64,000 bases of DNA from Prosopocoilus inquinatus. Taxonomy: Eukaryota; Arthropoda; Insecta; Coleoptera; Lucanidae. Under the pieces are notes generated by a model. That model made no database searches, had not been told where the DNA came from, and saw only the letters and a program-made list of their open reading frames with translations. Positions 975-64,000 of this stretch are shown in pieces; within the stretch, counting starts at the first letter, position 1; every line of letters begins with the position of its first letter. Position numbers and translations under genes: made by a program. The stretch is taken from assembly GCA_036172665.1 (NCBI GenBank), contig CM069877.1, positions 13,536,501-13,600,500 on the forward strand. Reading direction: 5' to 3'.

Positions 975-1570
975 GAACTGAGCTGCATCGAAGGAGGAAA
1001 GGAAATTGGAAGAACATGCGGTTTTCTTTCACGCGAGGAAAACCGCTGAGACTGCGTTCATTCTTATCGGCGACGTGACTCTTTTCGAGTAAATTCCATA
1101 ATCTCGTAGATAAAGTGCTAATTAAAGGCTCTTTTACGTAAATATCGGTTGGGTCGACAGCACTTTCACAACTGTCAAAAGTTCAGTCACATGAACGATG
1201 TTTACACACGTGTAAACTAAACTGATCTTATCAGTTTGTTATGTATTAGAAGATTGAAGGATGTGATTAGTTATTAAATTGGGTGATCGGATTAAGTAAC
1301 GATAAGATAAAAATTAAGGAGGATTTTTAAAACTGTTGGGGTGCGTTCAGAAATAACACATCCCGGGAAACAGTCAAGGGGCTCGTTCGGGAACTGGGAA
1401 GAGCGCGCTCTGGATAATATTCTTTCTCTCTTGTGTAAAAAGATTTTATTTGAAAGTAGGTAAAAATACGATAATTTAGATTTTTTTTTTTCGTAAATGA
1501 ATATTAAAGCCGTAAAGTATTAAAGAAATATGAATTAATTAAATTCCCGCCAAAACGCACATTCTGACCG
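975..1570. other. intergenic, likely LYSMD1 promoter side
   Basis: Non-coding, AT-rich DNA upstream of the LysM gene. No recognisable gene or strong repeat was seen. Confidence 0.3.
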
Positions 1571-1966
1571 TGTGACGTCAATGTTCATATGCTGTCAAAT
1601 CGTAATAAGTGAATATCAATACCAACACATAAAACTTATTACAATAAATAGTAAAACATATTATCAGTATTGTGCTGTGCTATAACGTAAAAATACCTGT
1701 GCAAGAACTCCGAATAAATTATTTCATACAAAATTTAGTGTTACCAACCTTACTTCTCAATGGCGAAAAGTTCCCGTTTCCACCACAAATTTCTCACCAA
1801 CATAGTAACAAAATATAATAATTTCTTTAAGACATTCACTTCGTAATTGTTGCTTAAATTAAAACTGTATTTTTCAACACATATTAAGAGCAAACATTCA
1901 AACTATTTGACAAGGGTCTGCATACAACATAAACGTCAAGGACAATGTATGAACATTGACGTCACA
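1571..1966. mobile_element. MITE with 19-bp terminal inverted repeats
   Basis: The stretch starts TGTGACGTCAATGTTCATA and ends with its exact reverse complement, about 0.4 kb apart, with no coding capacity between. The outer part of each arm contains TGACGTCA, a CRE/ATF-type site. Short non-autonomous DNA transposons have this form. I could not define a target duplication. Confidence 0.5.
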
Positions 1967-2267
1967 ACGAATGAGAAGCCTTTCGAAACCACGTGATTTA
2001 TATTTGAATATTTTCGATTTTATTTATTAATTTAAGAGAATAATAAATAGAAACAGCGTACAAATTTGGTGTTTTCGCGTACGTTATTGACTATAGTCTC
2101 GATTAGAGAGCTTTAATTAATAATTTTATATTATTGTCATGTACCCTATTACCAATTTTGTCCGGAAATACAGGATGTAACTAAAATAAAAGCCGCTACT
2201 TCACGAACGCATTCTACAGATCAAAATAAAGAAGAAAGTTCATGTAAAGATGTATACAGAGAATTCA

Positions 2268-2665
2268 CGGGAAGCAGCATAACAGTTAACTCTCTTATTT
2301 GAATTTTTACGAAGTAACTTATATTGGAAATGTTTCAGGATCTGTCCTGACCAATTTCATGGAAATATCAGAAAAATAAACGACTGTCAGGTTTTTGAAA
2401 TTTTCAATTGTTTTTAACTTTTTCTAATAAAACATATTTTTTTATCATCACATCGCGTTCAGAACGTCATATTAATTATGTCTCTAAAATATTTTCTAAG
2501 CCTAATATTTTTTTATTATTTGGCAAGTAAATCTTGATGATCAAGAAAAATGTCTATAACAGCTAACTTTTTTATTTGAAAATTTATGAGGTAACTTAAA
2601 ATAGGAAAGTTCTAGAACCTTTTCCGCTAGATTTTATGGCAATATATCAAAATCAATAAAAGGTA
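2268..2665. repeat. diverged tandem duplication
   Basis: Two related stretches lie about 280 bp apart (about 2270-2385 and 2550-2660). Both read roughly 'ataacag-taact-cttatttgaa-tttacga-gtaactta-a-taggaaa' and both end with an 'atatca-aa-aataaa' segment. This is an old partial tandem duplication with no coding content. Confidence 0.4.
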
Positions 2666-2790
2666 ACTATGGTAACTTAAAAATATGCTAAGGATTACAG
2701 ATTACTGTAAATGGAGTGCCATCACTGCCATCCCAGCGACCTGGGGGGAATTATAATTGCGTTTAAAACTCTGGCAATAAATATAAAGGG
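2655..2790. repeat. dispersed repeat, copy A
   Basis: A segment containing CCCAGCGACCTGGGGGGAAT, preceded by the sequence around the GTAACTATGGTAACTT motif. It recurs in reverse orientation at about 25768-25910. The two copies share the order of motifs over more than 120 bp, so this is a dispersed repeat of unknown class. Confidence 0.5.
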
Positions 2791-3031
2791 GCAGTACCAT
2801 TTTCATTCTTATTTTAAAGCGAGAATGGTTTAAACATTTCAAAAATTGCTGAATGCGTTATGTTTTATTCCGAAAATTAGAATGATACGACTTTTAAACA
2901 AAAAATACGATACGAAATTTGAAAGGTTGGTGACATTCATTCCATTTAGGTTGTTAGCACTTGTAGCGTCAGTTTTTAGGTTAATTCATTTACTTATCTC
3001 TGTCGTAAAATTGAGAAAAATATATTTAATT

Positions 3032-3483
3032 ATGTCTTACCAACTCTATCGCAATACAACCCTCGGCCACACCCTTCAAGAAAGTCTGGACGAGTTAATT
3101 CAGGTACCCTTCCAACCAAATATTAGGGGACCCAACTTTTCCTAAATGATTTTGTTGTAGTACGGGCAAATTACGCCGCAGTTAGCATGCAAAGTCCTCC
3201 TGCAATTCGATAAGTCCATCAACCAAACCCTAGCCACAAGAGTAAAGTCTCGGTTGACTTTTAAGGCCAACAAGCTCAACACGTACCGGTTTTGCGATAA
3301 CGTGTGGACTTTCATGTTGAACGACGTGGAATTCAGAGAGGTGCAGGAAATTACCAGGATTGATAAAGTTAAAATTGTTGCATGTGATGGAAAAAGTAAG
3401 TAAAAAGTTAGAGAGTGATCTTGGATAATAAATTGAGCTTTTCTTTTGCAGATGTAGCTGAAGAAGGTGGTTCTAAAAAGTAA
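3032..3483 (+). CDS. TfIIA-S: transcription initiation factor IIA, gamma (small) subunit
   Basis: Three exons, 3032-3103, 3161-3395 and 3452-3483, give 112 residues, the usual size for this subunit (human GTF2A2 is about 109). The first exon encodes [20 protein letters not shown]. The second carries the four-helix and beta-barrel regions with [18 protein letters not shown] and the hallmark [19 protein letters not shown], then [12 protein letters not shown]. The last exon supplies the short tail VAEEGGSKK. Introns are 57 and 56 nt. The protein pairs with TFIIA-L and stabilises TBP on TATA DNA in the nucleus. Near-complete match to the family makes this call secure. It converges with the C1orf43 homologue downstream. 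Confidence 0.97.
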
Positions 3484-3489
3484 TTTTGT

Positions 3490-3515
3490 GTGTATGTGTG
3501 TGTGTGTGTGTGTGG
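3490..3515. repeat. (TG)n microsatellite
   Basis: An interrupted TG run begins a few bases after the TfIIA-S stop codon and so lies in its 3' UTR. Confidence 0.8.
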
Positions 3516-4304
3516 TGGAGTTCAATTATGTACAGTGTTATTCTAATTTTAAAGTAGGTTTGTAGGGTCAGTTTTATACATGTTGGTTTGTATTAGAGAT
3601 AGAATCTCAAAATAGAATGATGTATCAGGCAATTTAATTTAAACTCATCCTCGGATGACTATGGAAAAGAATCTTGTAAAAAGAAAGAGAAAGAGAGACA
3701 ACAAACATTCATCAGTTGATTCAATACTTTTCTTTTGCTGTGTGCAAAATTTTGTATAAAATCTAAAACATCAATTTCCAAACTGGGAGGTACACCTCTC
3801 CGAGGAGGCACAAACTAGTACAAAGGGAGGTAATAGAAATGTAATCTTCATAGCAAAGTATGTCAACAATTATATGTATTATTTGATGAAATAAAGGGAG
3901 GGAGGGGCGCCAAGACTAAATATTTTTGAGAGGGAGGTGCAGTAATTATGTTTGGAAACCACTTCTGATGAGGGTGAGAAAAATGAATCACTTGATACAT
4001 CAACGGTTCTTTCTTTCTTTAATTTTGATTCAGTTTTATTATATTCATCATTAAACCAAGTAATTCAAGGGGTGTATTTATTTATAAATATGTATATTCA
4101 GGTATGCAGAACATTCTTAAATGAAAATATATTTACTCGATGTAACAGACATGTATCTATCGATTCAAATTAAGCAAATTATAAAAATGAAAAGTACGAT
4201 TAATATTTTACTTACTATCTTTGTACATAAAAAAAATCACAGTTAAAAATTAAAACATAAAACAAAATAAGCTATCTAACTGGTTCCGCCTTAACTAAGA
4301 TAAT
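3516..4304. other. convergent intergenic gap between TfIIA-S and C1orf43 homologue
   Basis: Non-coding, AT-rich; expected to hold the two 3' UTRs. It contains a purine-rich stretch around 3780-3940 with repeated GGGAGG motifs. No further gene seen. Confidence 0.4.
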
Positions 4305-15198: not shown

Positions 15199-15323
15199 TT
15201 TAGAAAAATTTTCATTATGCTTTGACAGCAAGCATGGCTGCCTTGCGTGGGGGACTTATTAGGAGCAAATCCCGCTTCAAGTTGTCTATCCTACTGCAAT
15301 GTCAGGTCAAAAAGCGATAGTAA
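15199..15323 (+). repeat. partial copy of the 63-kb hammerhead-bearing element (ribozyme part absent)
   Basis: It shares the stretch from TTATGCTTTGACAGCAAGC through the GGGGGAC and ATTAGGAGCAAATC blocks to AAAAAGCGATAGTAAG with 63431-63542. The match stops before the hammerhead segment. Confidence 0.65.
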
Positions 15324-31700: not shown

Positions 31701-34700
31701 ATAACCTACAATCTGGTCGCTGTTAATGTTACGTCAACAAACAACATCCGGTTGCAGTGATGCAAATAGCAAATAGTCGAATAAGGAAATGCTCTTAATT
31801 GTATTGCCAACTCAAACAGTTCTTCTTAACCCCTTTGTAGAAACAAAATCAAATGTTAAAATTTGAAATCTATAGTTGCCTTTGTCAACATTGACGTTAT
31901 CAGTGTCAATAGGTATATTCGTTTTAGATGACTTGGGTTGCCGCAAGTCACCTGCGTCAACGAAATGTGTATTCGTTTTAGATTTTCGGCATACTGTATT
32001 TGACATTGGCATATTCGTTTTAATTGCCACTGCGGCAACGCTGGTGTTGACACAATGTGCACCTACTCCAGAGTAGGGTTTAGTTGCGTCAACACCAAAG
32101 TATTGTTTACTTAACCTTAATTTAATTATTTTTCAGTAAGGTCGGTGTTCATCACACAGAAAAATCTTTGTTTGAATACAGTCGATGCATTTATTTATTT
32201 GAATGATGCACACTTTACATTAAATCAAGCAATTTCTTGTTGATTCAAACATTTTTTACTTGAATAAAATACATAACGGTTTTTCTTTTCTCTGTGTACC
32301 AACTTGCCTGTCACAAACTATTCGTTTTAGATCAATTTCTGATGCAACCCTAACTTGACCTAGATGGGCATCAGCTACTTGACGATGACGCTATTGTGGC
32401 AAACCCAGCATTTCTAAAACGAATATACCTAATATCAAGCTGTCAGAAACCGGAAGTTACTCCAGTTGCACCATTTGAAAATAAAATTCGGCATTGCCAA
32501 CTCAAACAGTCTTTGTATTACATGTAGAGATGGGATTCCACCCGGTGCAAACACGGAATGCACCCACAATGCACGGTGCATTGGACGCTTTGCCCGGTTG
32601 CCTACATTTACATAAGACATAAAAAATGCTTCAAAATGACACCAAATATAATATATTTTGTACGGACTATCGCTAGACAATTATTTTGTATTGTTAATTT
32701 CAAAAAATTAATCATTTTGTTCAGATTTTAAGCTACAAAGCTTCCGGTTAAACTTAAAAGTTTACTATTCAGCTATTCACCATACACCATGAAACATTAA
32801 ACCTGTAAACCACCTGCAAACAATTAAATAACATTGAGAAAATATTATTTCTCGTTCGATTTGCGCGGGAAATTTAAATTTTTGAATGCACCCGGTACAT
32901 TCATGTATGAACCCTGGTGAATGCACCCATGTGGGTGCTTTCAATGCACCAGGTTCATTCCCTGGCCCATCTCTAATTTCATGTATTGTTGATAGGTAGG
33001 GTCCCTAGATTTGATTGACATTTAACGTGTCGGAGAGGGTTCAGAAACATAACGTCAGATCCGTCAGATAATAATCAAGCAATAAGGTATTTTCTTGTAA
33101 TTATTATTTCCTGAAATATTTTTATAAGTACGATATTTGAATCATCTAGAAAAATATTTATATTTCAGTATGGAGTGCAGAAATTTTAAAATCAATATTC
33201 GTTCGGCATTTCTCGTAGCTCTTTCGGTTGTGTTGGTTAGACTTTAGTAGGGTCCCTAGATTTGATTGACATTTAACATGTCGGAGAGGGTTCGGAAGAA
33301 CAACGTCAAATCCGCCATCCGTATCGTCTACGGAATAGCAATACTGTGTTCTATTGTTTCTAATACGTGGGACAATCATATCAAGTTAGGTCAGCCAACT
33401 ATAAAATCTGAACATATAAATCAAAAACGATTTGCACAAAATTTTTATAAAATCTGACAAACAAAAATGACGTTGTGTTTCCGAATCCTCTCTCACATGT
33501 TACATGTCAATCAAATCTAGGGACCCTATTGGTAGGTACAGAAGAATCCGAATTTTATGGTTGGCAAGCAGTGTTGTCAACTTTTTCTCTCTAAATGAAG
33601 AAGTAATTTTATATTTTTAAGAGAGAAAATGGAAATCGTAATTAAAGATTATTATGTTCTTGTGTCGTGAATGATACAACTTTTGTAAAATATTTGTTTA
33701 TTTTAAACGCGCAGTTGATTAGCAATACCTGGCGAACATTTTTTAATGATAGATAGACATCAGTACAAAAGGACAGAGATAGAAGCTATTGAGACAATTG
33801 TTTAGTTTATAAAGCCTGAGACTTTGGTTACAATTATTTTCGAACGAAATCACTAGATTTCTCACTACACTAAACCGATCGTGAATTCACTAAATTTTCT
33901 ATATGCAAAAATACTAATTTCATTTTTCTTCCATCGAAAACCTTATTTTTAAAAATTATATAAGTAGAGTTGTATTTTATTCCGTTTCCTTAACACTTTT
34001 ACTTATGCATTGTGTTCCAGGCTTTAAAAATTTTGAAAGCTTTCAGATTTGACAGGCTTTAGGTTTTTGTAAAATCTGGGAAGTCGTATTTAAACAAATC
34101 TGCAAAAACTGGACTTTTCACTCTTCTTAGTAAACACATCACGATCGAAAACATATTATTTAGACGTGCGTATGTTAAAACAAATCAAGAGGAAGAAATA
34201 ACAAAATATTTTGCTAAGTCAAGGTTGGTAGAGCTGGACTGTGTATTAGAAGCAACTGGAGTGATCGGTGATTAGAAGGTTGCCTCGATCAGGGAAGGGT
34301 GCAGAGGGCACGTAACTCGTTACGTCACGCACGTGAAAAATTCCATTGAGCATATTAACCAGATTTTTGCATTATATGACCAATAGGGCCAGAGAATTGA
34401 TTCAATTTTTAGTGAATTAGATTAAGCTTTAGGAAGCAGATTAAAACTCACTCTATTTACTTCACTGTGACGGATGGAAGTTTCTTGTGATGTCATGAGA
34501 TACTTTTGCGGGGAGGAAATTTTAAACTACAGATTTAAATGGGACCAAGACAACCTGCTAGATACAATATCAGTGTTACCAACCTTGCACTATTCCTATT
34601 TTTTGTGAACCCCTCATATTTCTGGAAAAAGTTAAATTATGAGGGTTACTAAGTCAGCTGAGTAACAGCATTGATGATGTGACTGACGTCGCTAACACGA

Positions 34701-38575: not shown

Positions 38576-41299
38576 TACTCTGTTCACGTTAAGAATATAG
38601 TAGTTAGCGCTCGCGTCGGCGTACGTATTACATAGGAGCAATAAGGAAAGAGCGGTAAATTCAAAATTTTTATATTTAGAAAAACAGCAAACTAAAGGAG
38701 AATTTAATTTGTTGCATGAATACACAAACCAAACGATTAATTTAATTTACAATTAAATTAATCTTAGTAGTGATTTTAATTTGTTGTGCATAAATTCACC
38801 ACAGAGTCTGAATTTTGTTGCAAGTTTTATTCTTTTAGAGATAATTTAAAATTAAAAGCCCATGTTATTTAATAATGCCTTTATTTGCCTTATTGGTCAA
38901 CATGTAAACACATAGAAAAATAAAACGTACTTGAGGTTCAGAAAAGCAATAAAAAAATTGCTATCTATTTCAAAACCTAACCTTAACCTAATATATCTAT
39001 TTTTTCTATGTATTCTAACACTGATTCTACTCCAAGCTTTCCTCTAATATCTGCACTTTTTATTCTATCATTCAATGTAACTTCTATGGCTGTACGGAAG
39101 TATTCCATTTGTGTACTTCTATTTTTCTTTTCAGGCTACTCGTTTGTATCCATGATTCACAGCCGGAAGTTAATATGGATCTGAACATTGTTTTAATCTG
39201 ACCCTAAAACTAAATCAAAGTAAACTTGATAAAACTGATCACTGTCAGTTAATTGATAGCTATAAAAACATGTTACACGAGACACAAAAATCAAAATGAC
39301 AAAATACACAGAATAATTTAATAATTGCTGGCACAGCAAGAACAATCATGTTATAACAAACAATGTGAATTTATAAATCGAAAACAACCTGCTCTGATAA
39401 GTAGGGAAATTTGACTTAATCACTTGTTCACTGGGATGACAGATATTAATAACAAAAGTGTAGATAATGTGAATTCAGAATTTCTCACAAGATTAATTAT
39501 TATTTACTTTCGTTAATTTATTCACTTGTAAAATCTAAATCTGAGTCAGGTGGCGATTCTAATGATGAGTCAGTATTTGCTGTTATAATTAATTCCTCCA
39601 CCATATCTTCCACAATATTATCAAGTTGGTACATTTTGTTTTCTTCTGCAATAGCATGTTTAACGCAATTTTCCCAATGTTCAGCATTTACAAGATCTAA
39701 TCCCTCGAGCAGCAATGTTTTGACCTCGGGCAACTTGAATGTTTTATTATTAGCAGCTACATGATGTTTTACTTGAGCCCAAACAAGTTCTATTGGATTT
39801 AAATTGTAATGATAAGGGGGCAATCTTAATATTGTACGGCCAGTTTCTGTTACCATTTCATCTATAACGTAACTCACTGGATTATCACTTACATATTTTT
39901 TTGTTATATCAAGAAGTTGAACTTTTAATAAAGTGTTGTCTGTTACAATTCCTTTCAATGTAAGCCATTCAATTATTGCGCCTTTCTTCCATGAAGAATT
40001 AGGAATTTTATCCGTCTTGACTGAGTGATAAGGCGCATTGTCCATTACAATTACACATCCAGGTTCAAGATTTGGTAATATATTTTTCATCCACTCCGTA
40101 AAAACTTGACTGTTCATATCTTCATGACAGTCACCAGTTTTTTTTGATTCAAACAGTAGCAATCCGTTATCAACAAAACCAGTTTCACTACCAATGTGAA
40201 GCACAATCAGACGTTTTCCTTTTCCAGAAGGATTTTGTAAACCAAGTGACAATCCATCTACAAATGCTTGTCGAGCAGTAGTCACTGTTGTATCTTTCCA
40301 CACTTTTGGCTTTGTGTGACCGGCATTCACCCACGTCTCATCCAAGAAATATATTTTCTTTCCCATTGTACGAAATTTTCTAATGGAGTTTAAATAATTA
40401 CGTCTCCACAAGACAATACCTTGACGTTCGATTAAAATACAATTTCTGCTTCGTTCCTCCCATTTAAATCCCAATTTTCTCAAAATTTTCCACAATGTTG
40501 TACGATGAATTACAGGTAAAGTATCATCTGTTTGTAGAACCTATAAATTTTTTTACTTAGTTTCAAAATAATAGTAATAAATGTAAATGTATTTACCGTT
40601 AAAATTTTTGAGCAAGTAGGTAATTCATTCTTAAGATAAAAAGAATGCACATGTCTTCTAATAGATTTTTCATGAGCTTCATCGAGTTTATTGAAAATTG
40701 TATCACGGTTTCGCTTCTTGCTAGGAGATCGTAGAATTCCCGTGCTTTCCTTTTCTTTTACGATAGCCCACATTGTTGCCTCTCCAATGCCAACCATCTT
40801 TGAAGCCAATTTTATTGAAGCTGACTTGGAATTATCATGGTGGTATTGAACAAAAGCATTATATGCCATAACTCTTTGGTCACTTCGAATATGCTTCCCT
40901 TGAGGGTTTCTCGAGGAGCCAGCTTCCTCTCGTACGTCCATATTAGCACTGTAATATATCATAATAAATTCTCATGAAAATAAACATTATTAATAAAATA
41001 TTTACCTGTTAATTGCAATTACAGCCGTAGAGCTCTAAAAAGAACAATTTTTTAAACGATTTTAAATAACAATAAGCACACAAACCAAACACCAACACCA
41101 AACCAAAATGACATAAATACAACTGACGTTCACAATTCTAGTTATATTTCGCTCTATCCAACATAAAATTAATTCGCGGGAACGAGCGCCGGAATGTCAA
41201 CTTTAACCATTGTAAACTTGCCTCGAATTTCAACCAATCACAAGCCGGAAAATATTGCCCTATCCTTTCCAACGCTATATTCTTAACGTGAACAGAGTA
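38576..41299 (-). mobile_element. complete Tc1/mariner-superfamily DNA transposon
   Basis: Perfect inverted termini of at least 25 bp begin TACTCTGTTCACGTTAAGAA at both ends. Each end is flanked by TA (38574-38575 and 41300-41301), the target duplication of this superfamily. The 2724-bp body encodes one two-exon transposase. About 0.9 kb of non-coding DNA lies beyond its stop codon. Perfect termini and an open transposase imply a young copy. Confidence 0.9.
39518..40941 (-). CDS. DDE transposase, IS630-Tc1-mariner superfamily, long D-E spacing
   Basis: Two exons on the minus strand, 40941-40597 and 40540-39518, give 455 residues with no stop or frameshift. The start is MDVREE; the intron splices ..SKILT to VLQTDDTLP. 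A probable 5' UTR intron (CAG|GTAAAT to TTACAG) lies just upstream of the ATG. Residues about 20-110 form a helix-turn-helix-like region (IKLASKMVGIGEATMWAIVK). The catalytic core shows FLDETWV (first D), VIVMDNAPYH (second D) and LNPIELVWAQVK (E). I count 83 residues between the second D and the E, much longer than the 34 of Tc1 and mariner; the extra segment sits after the NAPYHS motif. The acidic C-terminus ends DSDLDFTSE. It probably belongs to a long-spacing group such as the published DD82E type, but I could not test this. Confidence 0.9.
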
Positions 41300-52698: not shown

Positions 52699-53049
52699 TA
52701 GAGATGGGATTCCACCCGGTGCAATCGTTTGCATCGGTGGAATCACGGAATGGATCCACAATGCACCCGGTACATTGGATGCTTTGTCTGGTTGCCTACA
52801 TTTACATAAGATATAAAAAATGCTTCAAAATGACACCAAATACCCGATACTTTGTACGGACTATCACTAGACAATTATTTTGTAACGTTAATTTCAAAAA
52901 CTTACTCATTTTGTTCAGATTTTAGGCTACAAAGCTTCCGGTGAAACTTAACAGTTTACTATTCAGCTATTCACCATACACTATGAAACATTAAACCTGT
53001 AAACCACCTAAATAGTGAGAAAACCCCTCGACCACATTAATTCACTGAA

Positions 53050-53092
53050 AGCGAATACGTATTTCGGTAACGAAGTTACCATCTTCAGCGCT
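53050..53092 (-). ncRNA. hammerhead ribozyme motif in Penelope-like copy 1
   Basis: Exact complement of the motif at 56497-56539; see that entry for the fold. It lies about 115 bp downstream of the copy 1 stop codon. Confidence 0.68.
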
Positions 53093-53208
53093 AAACTGAT
53101 ATTAAACTTTAAAACAACAAATAAACTAAACTAGACTAGCCGCACTCCCCCCCTCACTTTCTTTGTACCGTATTATGCATGCAAAGCAAACCGGGATTCT
53201 TCGAAAAT

Positions 53209-54891
53209 CTAAAGGTCGAAGAGGCAAGAAGCGGTCGGCCCGGACTTCTCAAAATTCATTAATCTATTCCTATTTTTGTGAATCTCCAAGCTTTCGAAAG
53301 AATCTAGGTTTGTTTTGTTATTAATTTGTTTGATTAAATCTATTTTATTTACCGAATGATTGTTTTCAAGCATGTGTAAGGCAACACTGGATTTATCAAA
53401 GCGTTTGTATTTTAAATGAGCCAAGTGTTCTTTGAATCTAATTTTTAAGGATCTTTTTGTTTGCCCTACATAAATTTGATCACAATTTTTACAACTAATT
53501 TTATATATACCTGATTTATCCTCCGAATCTACTTTATCTTTTAGATTTCCCAGCAACGATTTTAAGCTGTTATTGTTGGTGTAAACTATTCTTAAACCTA
53601 ATTTTTTAAAAATTGTATTCAACCCTTTAGTATATTGAGGATAAAACGGCATTTTTACAATTTTCTTATAATCTACCTCACCTATTTTGTCAGATTTTAG
53701 TGTGGTTATTTTATTAATCTCTAATTTTTGTTTTTGTTTTCTAATAATGTTATAGATTACATCGGGTTGGTAACCATTGTACGTGGCGATTTTAATAATT
53801 TCTTGAAGTTCTTTACTATAATTAACAGTTGATAAAGGGAATGTCAGCATCCTATGCACTAAGAAATTTAAGGCCGCTAATTTATATTGTTTGCAATGAT
53901 TTGAATCCGCGGGAATGAATCTATTAACATTAGTAGATTTCCTATAAACGTTAAATTCTAATTTATTACTATTTCTAGTTACTAATGTGTCTAAAAAGGG
54001 TAGTTTATTGTTAGTTTCAATTTCATAGGTAAATTTGATGGTGGTGAATTTAGAGTTTAAACTTTTAAGGAATTCCTCTATTGAACATTTACTTTGGTCA
54101 AAAACACAAAATATATCATCGACGTATCTCACCCAGATTTTAGGGAAATAATCTAAAGAGGCTTTAAGTTCCGTTTCAAATTTACCCATAAACAGATTTG
54201 CCATAAACGGTGACAAGCTATTTCCCATGGCTGCCCCTTCCAATTGTTGGTAAAACTCGTTGTTAAATTTAAAGAAATTTTGATTCATGCATAAACTAGT
54301 GAGTTTTATTAATTCATCCACTTCCTCCTTATCGAAGCTATTCTTTGATAAAAGTTCTTTCAGGTAATCTAAGGTGGTTTTTACAGGTATACTAGGAAAT
54401 AACGAAGTGACATCGAAGGATACTAAAATTTCGTTTGGTTTTATTTCTAGATTTTTTAATTTTTCAATAAATTCTAATGAATTTTTAACAGAAAAATCGG
54501 GTAATTTAACTGGAAGGTTATTAAATTTATCACTTAACCACCTCGATAATGAAGAAGTCGGTGAATTTATACAGGATACAATGGGTCTCATGCTGTTACC
54601 TGGTTTGTGTATTTTTGGTAAACAATACAATCTAGGGATTATTGGGTTAGATGTTGTTAATTTGTAACGTAAAGCGTTCGTAATCGCTTTACTGCAGTCT
54701 AACATGGTTTTTTTGGTCTCCGTAATCATTTTAGGTAAAGGATCTTTTTTAACTTTCTGGTATTGACCTTGATTAAGCATGCCATTTACTCTGTCGAAAT
54801 AATCTTCTTTATCTAAAATGACCACAGTATTGCCTTTGTCCGCCTTGAGATAAAAACAATCTTTTTCTCTAAGTGTTTTAATGATTTTCAA
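53209..54891 (-). CDS. Penelope-like reverse transcriptase with GIY-YIG endonuclease, N-truncated (copy 1)
   Basis: An open frame of about 560 residues without stops. It begins inside the element at KIIKTLREKDCFYLKADKGN, so the N-terminal part of a usual 700-850-residue protein is missing, and the first Met is incidental. RT blocks seen: ADKGNTVVILDKEDY, YCLPKIHKPG, SFDVTSLFPSIP, GAAMGNSLSPFMANLFM and the catalytic YVDDIF. After a linker, a GIY-YIG nuclease starts GIYKISCKNCDQIYVGQTKR and has RFKEHLAHL and a late LESLEIHKNRN. This RT plus GIY-YIG order defines Penelope-like elements. The product would copy its RNA from a nicked chromosomal end. Intact catalytic motifs suggest recent activity of the parent element. 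Confidence 0.93.
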   Translation of the reverse strand: MKIIKTLREKDCFYLKADKGNTVVILDKEDYFDRVNGMLNQGQYQKVKKDPLPKMITETKKTMLDCSKAITNALRYKLTTSNPIIPRLYCLPKIHKPGNSMRPIVSCINSPTSSLSRWLSDKFNNLPVKLPDFSVKNSLEFIEKLKNLEIKPNEILVSFDVTSLFPSIPVKTTLDYLKELLSKNSFDKEEVDELIKLTSLCMNQNFFKFNNEFYQQLEGAAMGNSLSPFMANLFMGKFETELKASLDYFPKIWVRYVDDIFCVFDQSKCSIEEFLKSLNSKFTTIKFTYEIETNNKLPFLDTLVTRNSNKLEFNVYRKSTNVNRFIPADSNHCKQYKLAALNFLVHRMLTFPLSTVNYSKELQEIIKIATYNGYQPDVIYNIIRKQKQKLEINKITTLKSDKIGEVDYKKIVKMPFYPQYTKGLNTIFKKLGLRIVYTNNNSLKSLLGNLKDKVDSEDKSGIYKISCKNCDQIYVGQTKRSLKIRFKEHLAHLKYKRFDKSSVALHMLENNHSVNKIDLIKQINNKTNLDSFESLEIHKNRNRLMNFEKSGPTASCLFDL

Positions 54892-54936
54892 ATTTTTAAG
54901 ATAAAAATTTGAAAATCATTAAAACACTTACAACAT
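54878..54936. repeat. palindromic junction of the two Penelope-like copies
   Basis: Perfect 26-bp arms, AAGTGTTTTAATGATTTTCA continuing to AAATTT and its complement, with a spacer of about 7 bp (around TAAGATA). This marks the fusion point of the inverted copies. Confidence 0.8.
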
Positions 54937-56380
54937 TTTTAAGATAAAAATTCCTAGATTGTATTGTTTACCAAAAATACACAAACCAGGTAACAGCATG
55001 AGACCCATTGTATCCTGTATAAATTCACCGACTTCTTCATTATCGAGGTGGTTAAGTGATAAATTTAATAACCTTCCAGTTAAATTACCCGATTTTTCTG
55101 TTAAAAATTCATTAGAATTTATTGAAAAATTAAAAAATCTAGAAATAAAACCAAACGAAATTTTAGTATCCTTCGATGTCACTTCGTTATTTCCTAGTAT
55201 ACCTGTAAAAACCACCTTAGATTACCTGAAAGAACTTTTATCAAAGAATAGCTTCGATAAGGAGGAAGTGGATGAATTAATAAAACTCACTAGTTTATGC
55301 ATGAATCAAAATTTCTTTAAATTTAACAACGAGTTTTACCAACAATTGGAAGGGGCAGCCATGGGAAATAGCTTGTCACCGTTTATGGCAAATCTGTTTA
55401 TGGGTAAATTTGAAACGGAACTTAAAGCCTCTTTAGATTATTTCCCTAAAATCTGGGTGAGATACGTCGATGATATATTTTGTGTTTTTGACCAAAGTAA
55501 ATGTTCAATAGAGGAATTCCTTAAAAGTTTAAACTCTAAATTCACCACCATCAAATTTACCTATGAAATTGAAACTAACAATAAACTACCCTTTTTAGAC
55601 ACATTAGTAACTAGAAATAGTAATAAATTAGAATTTAACGTTTATAGGAAATCTACTAATGTTAATAGATTCATTCCCGCGGATTCAAATCATTGCAAAC
55701 AATATAAATTAGCGGCCTTAAATTTCTTAGTGCATAGGATGCTGACATTCCCTTTATCAACTGTTAATTATAGTAAAGAACTTCAAGAAATTATTAAAAT
55801 CGCCACGTACAATGGTTACCAACCCGATGTAATCTATAACATTATTAGAAAACAAAAACAAAAATTAGAGATTAATAAAATAACCACACTAAAATCTGAC
55901 AAAATAGGTGAGGTAGATTATAAGAAAATTGTAAAAATGCCGTTTTATCCTCAATATACTAAAGGGTTGAATACAATTTTTAAAAAATTAGGTTTAAGAA
56001 TAGTTTACACCAACAATAACAGCTTAAAATCGTTGCTGGGAAATCTAAAAGATAAAGTAGATTCGGAGGATAAATCAGGTATATATAAAATTAGTTGTAA
56101 AAATTGTGATCAAATTTATGTAGGGCAAACAAAAAGATCCTTAAAAATTAGATTCAAAGAACACTTGGCTCATTTAAAATACAAACGCTTTGATAAATCC
56201 AGTGTTGCCTTACACATGCTTGAAAACAATCATTCGGTAAATAAAATAGATTTAATCAAACAAATTAATAACAAAACAAACCTAGATTCTTTCGAAAGCT
56301 TGGAGATTCACAAAAATAGGAATAGATTAATGAATTTTGAGAAGTCCGGGCCGACCGCTTCTTGCCTCTTCGACCTTTAG
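54909..56380 (+). CDS. Penelope-like RT/GIY-YIG ORF, internally deleted (copy 2)
   Basis: From YCLPKIHKPGN (about 54960) to the stop at 56380 it encodes the same residues as copy 1, as far as I can compare by eye (about 470 residues). Upstream it repeats only the first ~26 bp of copy 1, then jumps over roughly 280 bp to the YCLPKIH block, with about 20 bp of filler resembling the junction sequence. RT motif YVDDIF and the whole GIY-YIG domain are present, but the missing N-terminal RT block makes it defective. Confidence 0.9.
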
Positions 56381-56496
56381 ATTTTCGAAGAATCCCGGTT
56401 TGCTTTGCATGCATAATACGGTACAAAGAAAGTGAGGGGGGGAGTGCGGCTAGTCTAGTTTAGTTTATTTGTTGTTTTAAAGTTTAATATCAGTTT

Positions 56497-56539
56497 AGCG
56501 CTGAAGATGGTAACTTCGTTACCGAAATACGTATTCGCT
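56497..56539 (+). ncRNA. hammerhead ribozyme motif in Penelope-like copy 2
   Basis: In order: stem I strand AGCG, core CTGAAGA (fits CUGANGA), stem II GGTAAC-TTC-GTTACC, core GAAA, stem III TAC/GTA extended by an A-U pair, cleavage dinucleotide TT, then CGCT closing stem I. One unpaired T separates the first core from stem II, which may lower activity. Hammerheads are known from Penelope-like elements, where they lie in the terminal repeats as here. Confidence 0.7.
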
Positions 56540-56745
56540 TTCAGTGAATTAATGTGGTCGAGGGGTTTTCTCACTATTTATTTGGATTACAGCCACAGGT
56601 TTTGTGTTGCTTTGTGATTACTGTAAACCACCTGCAAACAATTAAATAGCATCAAGAAAAGATTATTTCTCGTTCGATTTGCGCGGGAAATTTAAATTTT
56701 TGAATGCACCCGGTACATTCATGTATGCACATCTATCATGCACCT

Positions 56746-62215: not shown

Positions 62216-63040
62216 ATACGAAGCTTCTCATAAACTTTTCAACTCGCTTTTATAATTTATCAAAAGAGGTATCAGCGTGGGAAAATACAGAATACTGGGA
62301 CAAGCAAACATTTAATTGATTAAAGTGGACTTTCATTAACGACGTTTTCCTGTCAAAATTTGTAAATACTTCAAAGACACCCTGTTCATCCGAAGAACAA
62401 GAAGTAGTTGCTACCAACTATTTAAATTACGACATCATTATACGAACAATTTCCGATGAATTAACAATAATTAAAATATGACAAGAATCTTCATTCTTAC
62501 TTGGTTTTAAGCCATAACATTTTGCTTAATTTCCGTTAAAAATGGCAACTGCCTTAATATTTTCTGCAATATTACTTTCTCTGTCAAATGTGCACGGCGT
62601 CCTTATGGAAAAGTAAAAATTATTATTCTTATTATTTATTAATACTTCTGTTTTCGAATGCTTTAGTGGTTGGTGGAATGCATTTCTAGCCACTTAATAA
62701 AATTAAAAAAATTGCGATAAACTTCAAACATTTCGCAAAATGATTGTTGTAATTGTATTTTCGCTTTAATTTTGAGTTTATTCAATACAAAACAACAATA
62801 GTAATTGTTGTTTTGCAATACAAAAACCATTCGCGAAATTTTAGGTTAGATTGCGGATAAAATTATGACTTTTAAATGTAGATTTAGGGAATTATTTTTT
62901 TTTTGGATACTGGCAATTTTGTTTGTGACTAGTGTCATTCATTCTGTCAACTGTCGAATCAGGTTCGTTCAGTTTACGTTCTTGGTTTCATATAAAAATA
63001 ATTTCTTTTCAGGATCCAATTATGTTCAACGTTAAATTTA
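62216..63040. other. intergenic, no feature recognised
   Basis: AT-rich, with a short inverted AATACAAAACAACAATA / TTGTTGTTTTGTATT pair near 62785-62825. Confidence 0.3.
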
Positions 63041-63110
63041 ATGGACTGTTGCTATGGTAACAACCATTCATAAAGCTTTATGAATGGTTGTTACCATAGC
63101 AACAGTCCAT
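63041..63110. repeat. 70-bp perfect palindrome carrying two X-box motifs
   Basis: The sequence from ATGGACTGTTGCTATGGTAA to its exact complement has no spacer. Each half carries GTTACCATAGCAAC. Confidence 0.85.
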
Positions 63111-63206
63111 AAAGCTTTATGATTGGCTGTTACCATAGCAACAGTCCCTTAATCATAAAACTTTATAAAAATTTTGTGCGAATCGTTTTTGATTGCAGTG
63201 AGAACC

Positions 63207-63271
63207 TCGAGCAGCCTCTGGACAGCTGTTTCAGCCCTGCTTGGGGCTTCTTCAGCAGAAACGTAGCTCGA
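63207..63271 (-). ncRNA. hammerhead ribozyme, minus-strand monomer
   Basis: Exact complement of 63626-63690, with the same fold. Confidence 0.78.
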
Positions 63272-63625
63272 CATTCCCACTGCAGACCAAAAACGACTTG
63301 CCCAATTTATTCGCAAATGCGATGTAAGAATGATGAACATATAAAATAGCGACACTTACTATCGCTTTTTGACGTCCCCCATGCAAGGCGGCCATGCTTG
63401 CTGTCAAAGCATAATGAAAGATTTTAGAAAAATTATGCTTTGACAGCAAGCATGGCCGCCTTGCATGGGGGACTCATTAGGAGCAAATCCCGCTTCAATT
63501 TGTCTCTCCTACTGCAATGTTAGGTCAAAAAGCGATAGTAAGTGTCGCTATTTTATATGTTCATCATTCTTACATCGCATTTGCGAATAAATTGGGCAAG
63601 TCGTTTTTGGTCTGCAGTGGGAATG

Positions 63626-63690
63626 TCGAGCTACGTTTCTGCTGAAGAAGCCCCAAGCAGGGCTGAAACAGCTGTCCAGAGGCTGCTCGA
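63626..63690 (+). ncRNA. hammerhead ribozyme (type I), plus-strand unit
   Basis: Outer stem I TCGAGC/GCTCGA (63626-63631 with 63685-63690); an internal loop; inner stem I TTTCTG/CAGAGG (63636-63641 with 63677-63682); core CTGAAGA (63642-63648); stem II AGCCC-CAAGCA-GGGCT; core GAAA (63665-63668); stem III CAG/CTG closed by an A-U pair; cleavage dinucleotide TC at 63675-63676. All core positions fit the consensus. The stem I internal loop and stem II loop are where natural hammerheads make their stabilising contact. Confidence 0.8.
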
Positions 63691-64000
63691 GGTTCTCACT
63701 GCAATCAAAAACGATTCGCACAAAATTTTTCTAAAATCTTTCATTATGCTTTGACAGCAAGCATGGCCGCCTTGCATGGGGGACTCATTAGGAGCAAATC
63801 TCGCTTCAATTTATCTATCCTACTGCAATGTTAGGTCAAAAAGCGATAGTAATTTGTCGCTATTTTATATGTTCATAAAACTTTATGTTGGTTGTTACCA
63901 TAGCAACAGATCTATAAATTTAACGTACTCGATACAGAATAGGCCCTAATAGAGGCTATTCAAAAGGCTTTATAATTGGTTGTTACCATAGCAACAATCC

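Follow-up and report, generated by a model that had tools for sequence, protein, structure and literature searches.

The 707-bp insertion and its surroundings

The 64,000-nucleotide stretch of Prosopocoilus inquinatus DNA analyzed here (the window) carries close to its right-hand end a 707-bp insertion (63167-63872), in which a 311-nt unit is arranged as one inverted and one direct arm meeting head-to-head, and, about 7 kb away, a Penelope-like element (PLE) that is likewise built of two head-to-head arms. The coordinates of both elements and of their parts are collected in Table 1. The unit, which has a GC content of 44%, is numbered from the predicted cleavage point of its hammerhead motif, with nt 1 at window position 63677 and nt 311 at 63676. 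A repeat search within the window recovered the direct copies 63432-63541 and 63743-63852 (311-nt spacing, 97% identity) together with the inverted copies 63157-63373 and 63524-63740 (99%) and 63374-63437 and 63721-63784 (98%). The initial annotation had described one full and one partial direct unit of 311 bp and one inverted monomer; this repeat layout holds, but the inverted arm exceeds one unit and yet lacks 50 nt, namely the unit positions of 63474-63523. The direct arm contains sequence of two differing units (four substitutions and an indel). No frame of 120 amino acids lies within the 707-bp element, and the reverse transcriptase (RT) and GIY-YIG reading frame present in the neighboring PLE is absent from it. 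Collection scans gave no exact match.

Table 1. Features of the candidate retrozyme and of the neighboring PLE in the window
Feature	Position	Strand	Basis or remarks
Target-site duplication, left copy	63153..63166		TCATAAAACTTTAT (14 nt)
Inverted arm	63167..63437	-	One unit plus ~10 nt, lacking 50 nt internally; RNA site A (~nt 60) at its outer end
Second, identical hammerhead motif, on inverted arm	63214..63262	-	Descriptor
Direct arm	63432..63872	+	1.42 units of 311 nt; RNA site B (~nt 197) at its outer end
One complete 311-nt unit	63432..63742	+	
Long hairpin (extended stem I), ribozyme at the tip	63601..63723	+	Fold
Type I hammerhead motif	63635..63683	+	Descriptor, Rfam alignment
Hairpin domain separating start sites A and B	63737..63872	+	Fold; proposed analogue of the PLE 'tail'
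Target-site duplication, right copy	63873..63886		TCATAAAACTTTAT; next comes GTT, complementary to AAC, the enriched outer motif
Unit fragment without ribozyme	15205..15323	+	93%
34-bp remnant insertion	33412..33445	-	A and B termini only; 12-bp duplication 33400-33411 / 33446-33457
PLE, two head-to-head arms	53010..56620		Palindrome near 54900; 13-bp duplication 52997-53009 / 56621-56633
PLE open frame, RVT_1 and GIY-YIG, minus arm	53209..54915	-	
PLE open frame, RVT_1 and GIY-YIG, plus arm	54923..56380	+	Shorter 5' end
PLE minimal hammerhead-like motif	56501..56538	+	By eye; second copy 53051-53088 (-)

The insertion itself had been recognized from the outset, whereas the duplication of 13 bp reported with it measures 14 nt by sequence. 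The retrozyme inserted into a host repeat of 39-bp period, which contains GGTTGTTACCATAGCAACAG and occupies 63038-64000. When the flanks are joined without the insertion, the host repeat runs on across the join, and the duplication is therefore very probably a real target-site duplication; a 7-nt spacing difference to the neighboring host repeat lies elsewhere in the alignment than the join, and the host repeat itself contains words similar to the duplication. The remnant at 33400-33457 has the form of an extreme case, with two very short arms.

The junction of the two PLE arms is marked by a 61-nt palindrome (54870-54930), and palindromes at inverted junctions are also reported, in the portion of the paper available, for other PLEs (PMC3846280). 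The target repeat of the PLE has a relative at 32.5-32.9 kb that shows the empty site. Its protein has its closest named relatives in insects, e.g. Tribolium castaneum (51%). Because at least 40 genome copies are identical to its 371-bp 3' region (among the best 40 of 768 candidates scored), the family is young. The minimal hammerhead-like motif of the PLE gave no Rfam hammerhead match. Elsewhere in the window, two overlapping frames at 39518-40971 (-) resemble, by eye, a broken Tc1/mariner-like transposase, and the host gene for PP2A B'' gamma has its best named relatives in the scarab beetles Holotrichia oblita (87%) and Trypoxylus dichotomus (85%).

The hammerhead domain

The plus-strand motif has a stem I of seven pairs (63635-63641 with 63677-63683) that continues through an internal loop into a long outer hairpin, a CUGAAGA core, a stem II of five pairs (AGCCC-GGGCU) followed by GAAA, and a stem III of two pairs (AC-GU) closed by an AGCU loop. 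The predicted cleavage site is GUC, and cleavage after 63676 would agree with the hammerhead consensus. A generic type I descriptor, composed after the sequence had been seen, matched only the two motifs of Table 1 in the whole window and nothing in 200 Markov-1 resampled windows. At the Rfam gathering threshold the whole window gave no match, and a scan of 1101 bases gave only HH9 (14.5 bits, E 3.1). In a focused scan of 111 bases, RF00163 (Hammerhead_1) aligned from end to end (model positions 1-45), the residues of the core being matched; the score was 23.8 bits (E 4.4e-4), below the model's cut-off of 34. The original description of both units as carrying a hammerhead with correct core, three stems and an extended stem I is thus borne out by a descriptor-specific motif on each arm and by the core alignment to RF00163, while the covariance-model check proposed with it came out on both sides, the focused scan being better than chance but short of the Rfam cut-off. 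Many miRNA-like Rfam hits at low threshold, mostly on palindromes, were set aside.

Folding of 63590-63726 gave a z-score of -8.1 against shuffles, and the 311-nt unit folded as a circle gave -6.6. The minimum-energy fold does not contain the active hammerhead, the letters of stem III being paired to letters of the core. Among the family copies, covariation analysis counted 50 one-sided consistent cells, no two-sided ones and 66 broken ones, of 3010, and variation rates were similar at core, paired, and other positions. The copies of the ribozyme domain vary neutrally, and covariation gives no support for selection on the fold. The core is kept in 188 of 200 complete domains, in loci chosen by similarity or by an intact core. 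In seven arms of the similarity-picked set the letter at unit nt 311 (63676 in the window) is A and not C; under the NUH rule, A too permits hammerhead cleavage. The genome also contains at least seven hammerheads above the RF00163 cut-off, among 74 of 83,220 candidates scored (C4:54091586, C1:52807350, C7:10364934, C7:51475900, C5:39948034, C5:48362892, and C1:39300356; best score, 42.6 bits), which possibly form another, more canonical ribozyme family.

Insertion ends, target sites, and templates across the genome

The exact 35-nt ribozyme core occurs 11,198 times (5552 + 5646) in the assembly searched (650 Mb, 173 contigs), and the reversed control gave no match. An initial similarity search returned 247 matches, with 40 of 1525 candidates scored. 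Two samples of loci were read, of which the similarity-picked one comprises 39 loci with 2-kb flanks plus the window copy and is biased toward the query, and the other comprises the first 20 consecutive clusters of ribozyme matches on contig C1, selected by the exact core and not by arrangement. The search for further copies that had been proposed at the outset therefore found them in abundance, including copies with target duplications and tandem arrays; the latter consist of uniform 311-nt units (311-312-bp spacing), run to at least 14 units and contain no open reading frame. Three pairs of loci (L010 and L046, L020 and L021, L031 and L032) have flanks in common and represent duplicated regions, L010 and L046 showing the same single insertion with arrays of differing length. 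L046 was dropped from the end-position and target-site lists, and L021, L032, and L046 were dropped from the comparison of subfamily variants.

In the loci read, each arm corresponds to reverse transcription from an RNA start site toward the RNA 5' end, and the ends of 55 head-to-head pairs with readable flanks fall into 44 A+B, 3 A+A, 1 B+B, and 7 other combinations, under windows for A and B that were set after the data had been seen. The 38 similarity-picked pairs (windows nt 50-72 and 188-207), from which L034 is excluded for an unreadable right flank, comprise 16 A+B, 12 B+A, 3 A+A, 1 B+B, and 6 with an end elsewhere. One of these ends lies at nt 310 (L018), in a pair outside the A+B set that has no clear duplication. 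All 26 similarity-picked pairs whose exact duplication reaches 9 bp or more (25 without the duplicated locus) are A+B or B+A, with no A+A and no B+B among them, and the 10 of 38 pairs with other ends all have duplications shorter than 9 bp, the A+A and B+B pairs having no clear duplication. The 20-locus set contains a head-to-head pair in 17 loci and single arms only in 3; 16 of the 17 pairs are A+B, including L063, whose end at nt 49 counts as A only under a wider window, and one (L059) ends at nt 61 and 104, so that 33 of the 34 ends lie at A or B. Over 41 A+B insertions (25 + 16), site A falls at nt 59.6 (sd 3.7) and site B at nt 197.4 (sd 3.2), in a list using the wider windows of nt 45-72 and 185-207, likewise set after the data had been seen; L059 and the single arms are left out of its 82 arms, and that every one of the 82 ends falls at A or B follows from this selection. 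Around the first 100 ribozyme places of C1, opposite-strand neighbors within 2 kb were head-to-head in 19 cases and tail-to-tail in none, with nine same-strand neighbors.

Duplications of at least 9 bp flank 26 of the 38 similarity-picked pairs and 15 of the 17 pairs of the 20-locus set (that of L063 being poorly placed), whereas mismatched flanks used as a control gave 3-8 bp in 1963 and at least 9 bp in 37 of 2000 draws. The target-site list is restricted to duplications of at least 9 bp and leaves out L059, L061, L063, and the single arms; its 39 insertions have duplications of 12 bp in 22 cases and 13 bp in 6 (range 9-15). AA[CT] stands immediately outside the duplication, with its complement on the other side, on 35 of 78 sides against a background of 5.7%, and AAC alone on 20 of 78 against 1.9%, a background drawn from stretches of sequence in the window copy and the 39 similarity-picked loci. 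Since AA[CT] on one side is matched by its complement on the other, the target is roughly symmetric (AAY-N12-RTT), as would be expected of two strand cuts by one kind of endonuclease. Some insertion ends have up to 8 nt in common with the target.

At 11 subfamily-informative columns, pairs of units differ in 84 of 3534 comparisons within an arm (2.4%) and in 51 of 1438 between the two arms (3.5%), against 24.4% for random pairs, and private variants are common to both arms in some insertions, e.g. three in L028. Both arms therefore seem to derive from one RNA or one source locus. Among the 82 arms of the 41 A+B insertions, 65 run across the cleavage junction and 41 are longer than one unit; the cut shows no excess of inner ends (2 against 2.9 expected), and no outer end lies there in these arms, which were selected for A/B ends. 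Because most arms cross the junction, half exceed one unit and inner ends are unenriched at the cut, the template was probably a circle or a multimer rather than a linear monomer left by cleavage. One monomer circle alone cannot explain all insertions, since the direct arm of the window copy has two unlike units and heterogeneity is seen in 17 of 57 multi-unit arms; another possible cause of this heterogeneity is exchange inside the arrays at a later time. A deletion in the inner units of both arms of L010 was considered as proof of a mixed RNA multimer and dropped, L010 and L046 sharing flanks and duplication.

The PLE of the window has a comparable anatomy. Its ribozyme-like motif has 729 exact genome copies, and around the first 100 of these places opposite-strand neighbors within 6 kb were head-to-head in 36 cases and tail-to-tail in none. 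Of 10 PLE loci selected because their direct 3' end is complete, 5 have an inverted arm within 1.5 kb, which in all 5 ends 36-40 nt earlier; the stretch between the two PLE ends folds as a hairpin. These five insertions and the window element have duplications of 11-14 bp (median 12.5, n = 6, against 12 for the 39 insertions of the retrozyme list), and AA[CT] stands on 5 of their 12 sides (p 4e-4), against the 35 of 78 given above. Head-to-head arms, two ends, similar duplications, and AA[CT] are therefore common to both elements, and the likeness first remarked upon between the inverted arm and duplication of the insertion and those of the PLE is upheld; the distance between the two start sites differs, at about 136 nt from A to B in the retrozyme and 36-40 nt in the PLE. 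No sequence similarity between the unit and the window PLE was found, and a similar-looking start-site motif, the best of four comparisons, was matched by 4.6% of random stretches and is not significant. In L028, the retrozyme (2004-2932 within 983-3563) splits the RT frame of a PLE; this PLE is 34-38% identical to that of the window, so that the genome has at least two PLE families.

Mobilization of the family

Taken together, we consider it likely that the element is a non-autonomous animal retrozyme whose two-arm A/B insertions were made by a PLE-type reverse transcriptase with a GIY-YIG endonuclease, the PLE part of which we infer from the shared anatomy. The retrozyme reading proposed in the initial annotation is supported by the 311-nt units, their GC content, the type I motif, the lack of a 120-amino acid frame, the tandem arrays, and the number of exact cores, and its further proposal of mobilization by a Penelope-like RT gains the anatomy shared with the PLE; this anatomy suggests PLE mobilization but does not prove it. 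With endonuclease-bearing PLEs, as described in the available parts of two papers (PMC3846280, PMC11167929), the retrozyme has in common inverted and direct arms, a duplication, an extra length ('tail') on one arm, two internal RT starts, extension of both strands, an AT-rich ATT target, and a hammerhead upstream of the start sites. It differs from them in lacking an open reading frame and any detected similarity of sequence, in its fuller ribozyme and in its starts, which lie about 136 nt apart instead of about 30-40. In Arkhipova et al. (2013), such PLEs carry inverted and direct pLTRs and duplications of 8-10 bp, the tail is optional and stands on one inverted pLTR, and a host gene mobilized in trans is found between pLTRs (PMC3846280). 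For a purified lizard (Anolis) PLE, the excerpted text of Frangieh et al. (2024) reports that both strands are cut and extended with a preference for ATT, that two internal RNA start sites account for the PLE 'tail', that ribozyme cleavage is not needed in vitro, and that the start site is alike on both strands and the start not homologous to the cut DNA (PMC11167929). In contrast to these findings, each beetle retrozyme insertion pairs one A with one B, and some ends share words with the target.

The insertions could be explained as follows. A PLE-type reverse transcriptase with a GIY-YIG endonuclease would make a staggered cut, about 12 bp apart; each 3' end of the cut would prime synthesis on a circle or multimer of the retrozyme RNA, with site A serving one end and site B the other, and the two cDNAs would then be joined. 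The hammerhead would most likely shape the RNA, with multimers cut into units and units re-closed, and synthesis would start elsewhere than at ribozyme-cut ends. Because synthesis apparently does not start at these ends, there is a limit to what the hammerhead can be for. The helper would be a PLE, perhaps of the young family in the window, but it could be another PLE family, since no sequence common to the unit and the window PLE was found. A more specific version of this explanation, which may equally well turn out right or wrong, holds that PLEs trans-mobilize animal retrozymes by paired, two-sided target-primed synthesis, with A used on one strand end of the 12-bp staggered cut and B on the other and never the same site twice, a single RNA templating both, and the A-B hairpin mimicking the PLE 'tail'. 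Within this version, the A+B rule and the near-identity of the arms are the grounds for a single RNA molecule templating both strands.

Another origin, which we regard as unlikely, would derive the element from an unseen PLE family that is itself autonomous, with the 311-nt unit as its pLTR; the window copy would have lost the open reading frame and kept the pLTR only. The PLE layout of an inverted pLTR and direct pLTRs with a duplication (PMC3846280) fits such an origin, and retrozymes are suggested, in the part of a review available, to have arisen by reduction of PLEs (PMC11722881). However, no PLE RT was found inside the elements by tblastn with the in-window PLE protein at 40 of the 60 loci, a search that could miss a very divergent RT, the 4 loci matched being matched outside the insertions, and at L028 the PLE match is interrupted by the retrozyme insertion. 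The uniform arrays of at least 14 ORF-less units and the excess of retrozyme cores over PLE motifs (11,198 against 729) speak against it as well, as does the unit's ribozyme, whose 2-bp stem III with a loop and looped stem I are unlike the minimal motif of the window PLE. Mobilization by a LINE, with the inverted arms as products of ordinary twin priming, is very improbable. Twin priming likewise yields an inverted arm and a duplication, and the words of up to 8 nt shared with the target at some ends would suit it, but inversions are a minority among LINE insertions, whereas here the head-to-head arrangement is the usual one (17 of 20 loci). Both arms moreover start at fixed RNA sites, no poly-A end is seen at the 26 junctions printed, and duplication length, the two ends, and the target motif match the PLE. 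The idea that recombination spread the family as transcribed satellite DNA, the ribozyme being a passenger, would correspond to the 311-312-bp arrays and the common sub-patterns of neighboring units in some of them. It is largely refuted, and hardly any weight is left to it, because copies are dispersed and have exact target duplications, their termini are fixed, and an empty site is restored.

Animal retrozymes were defined by Cervera & de la Pena (2020), who called PLEs 'a strong candidate' on the basis of shared ribozymes, tandem copies, and coexistence (PMC7229834), and a similar argument for PLEs as their mobilizers is made in PMC7761336, both as far as their available text goes. PLE-driven mobilization, argued there from coexistence and shared ribozymes, thereby gains anatomical support. 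The beetle family resembles the non-LTR retrozymes of that definition (PMC7229834, in excerpt) in its non-coding tandem units (170-400 nt there), low GC, duplications longer than 4 bp, type I hammerhead (one axolotl class having a 2-bp stem III with a tetraloop, 'similar to invertebrate HHRs'), and coexistence with PLEs carrying minimal ribozymes. It differs from them in its head-to-head pairs, in which the two arms begin at different, fixed start sites; the main text of that paper, as available, does not use the word 'inverted'. In the titles, abstract openings, and passages of the open-licence literature that were covered, we found no description of head-to-head or two-site retrozyme ends.

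The fixed anatomy of the sampled loci (two starts, one per arm, a 12-bp stagger, and AA[CT]), common to the retrozyme and the neighboring PLE, makes the hypothesis directly testable in vitro. The family also offers a large natural collection of insertions for studying how PLEs integrate, a process whose later steps await validation according to the available text of PMC11167929. If the paired two-site reading is true, retrozyme insertions would form a readable record of PLE integration, with thousands of events per genome. Two hammerhead repeats are likened to the family by description, each from excerpted text. pDo500 of Dolichopoda cave crickets (PMC2837043) is another insect repeat with a hammerhead, one that self-cleaves in vitro; it is a satellite of about 500 bp, and the passages covered give no description of its insertion ends. 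Newt satellite 2 and the axolotl retrozymes (per PMC7229834) differ in host and are alike in their units of about 330-350 bp and short stem III, and their dimers cleave better.
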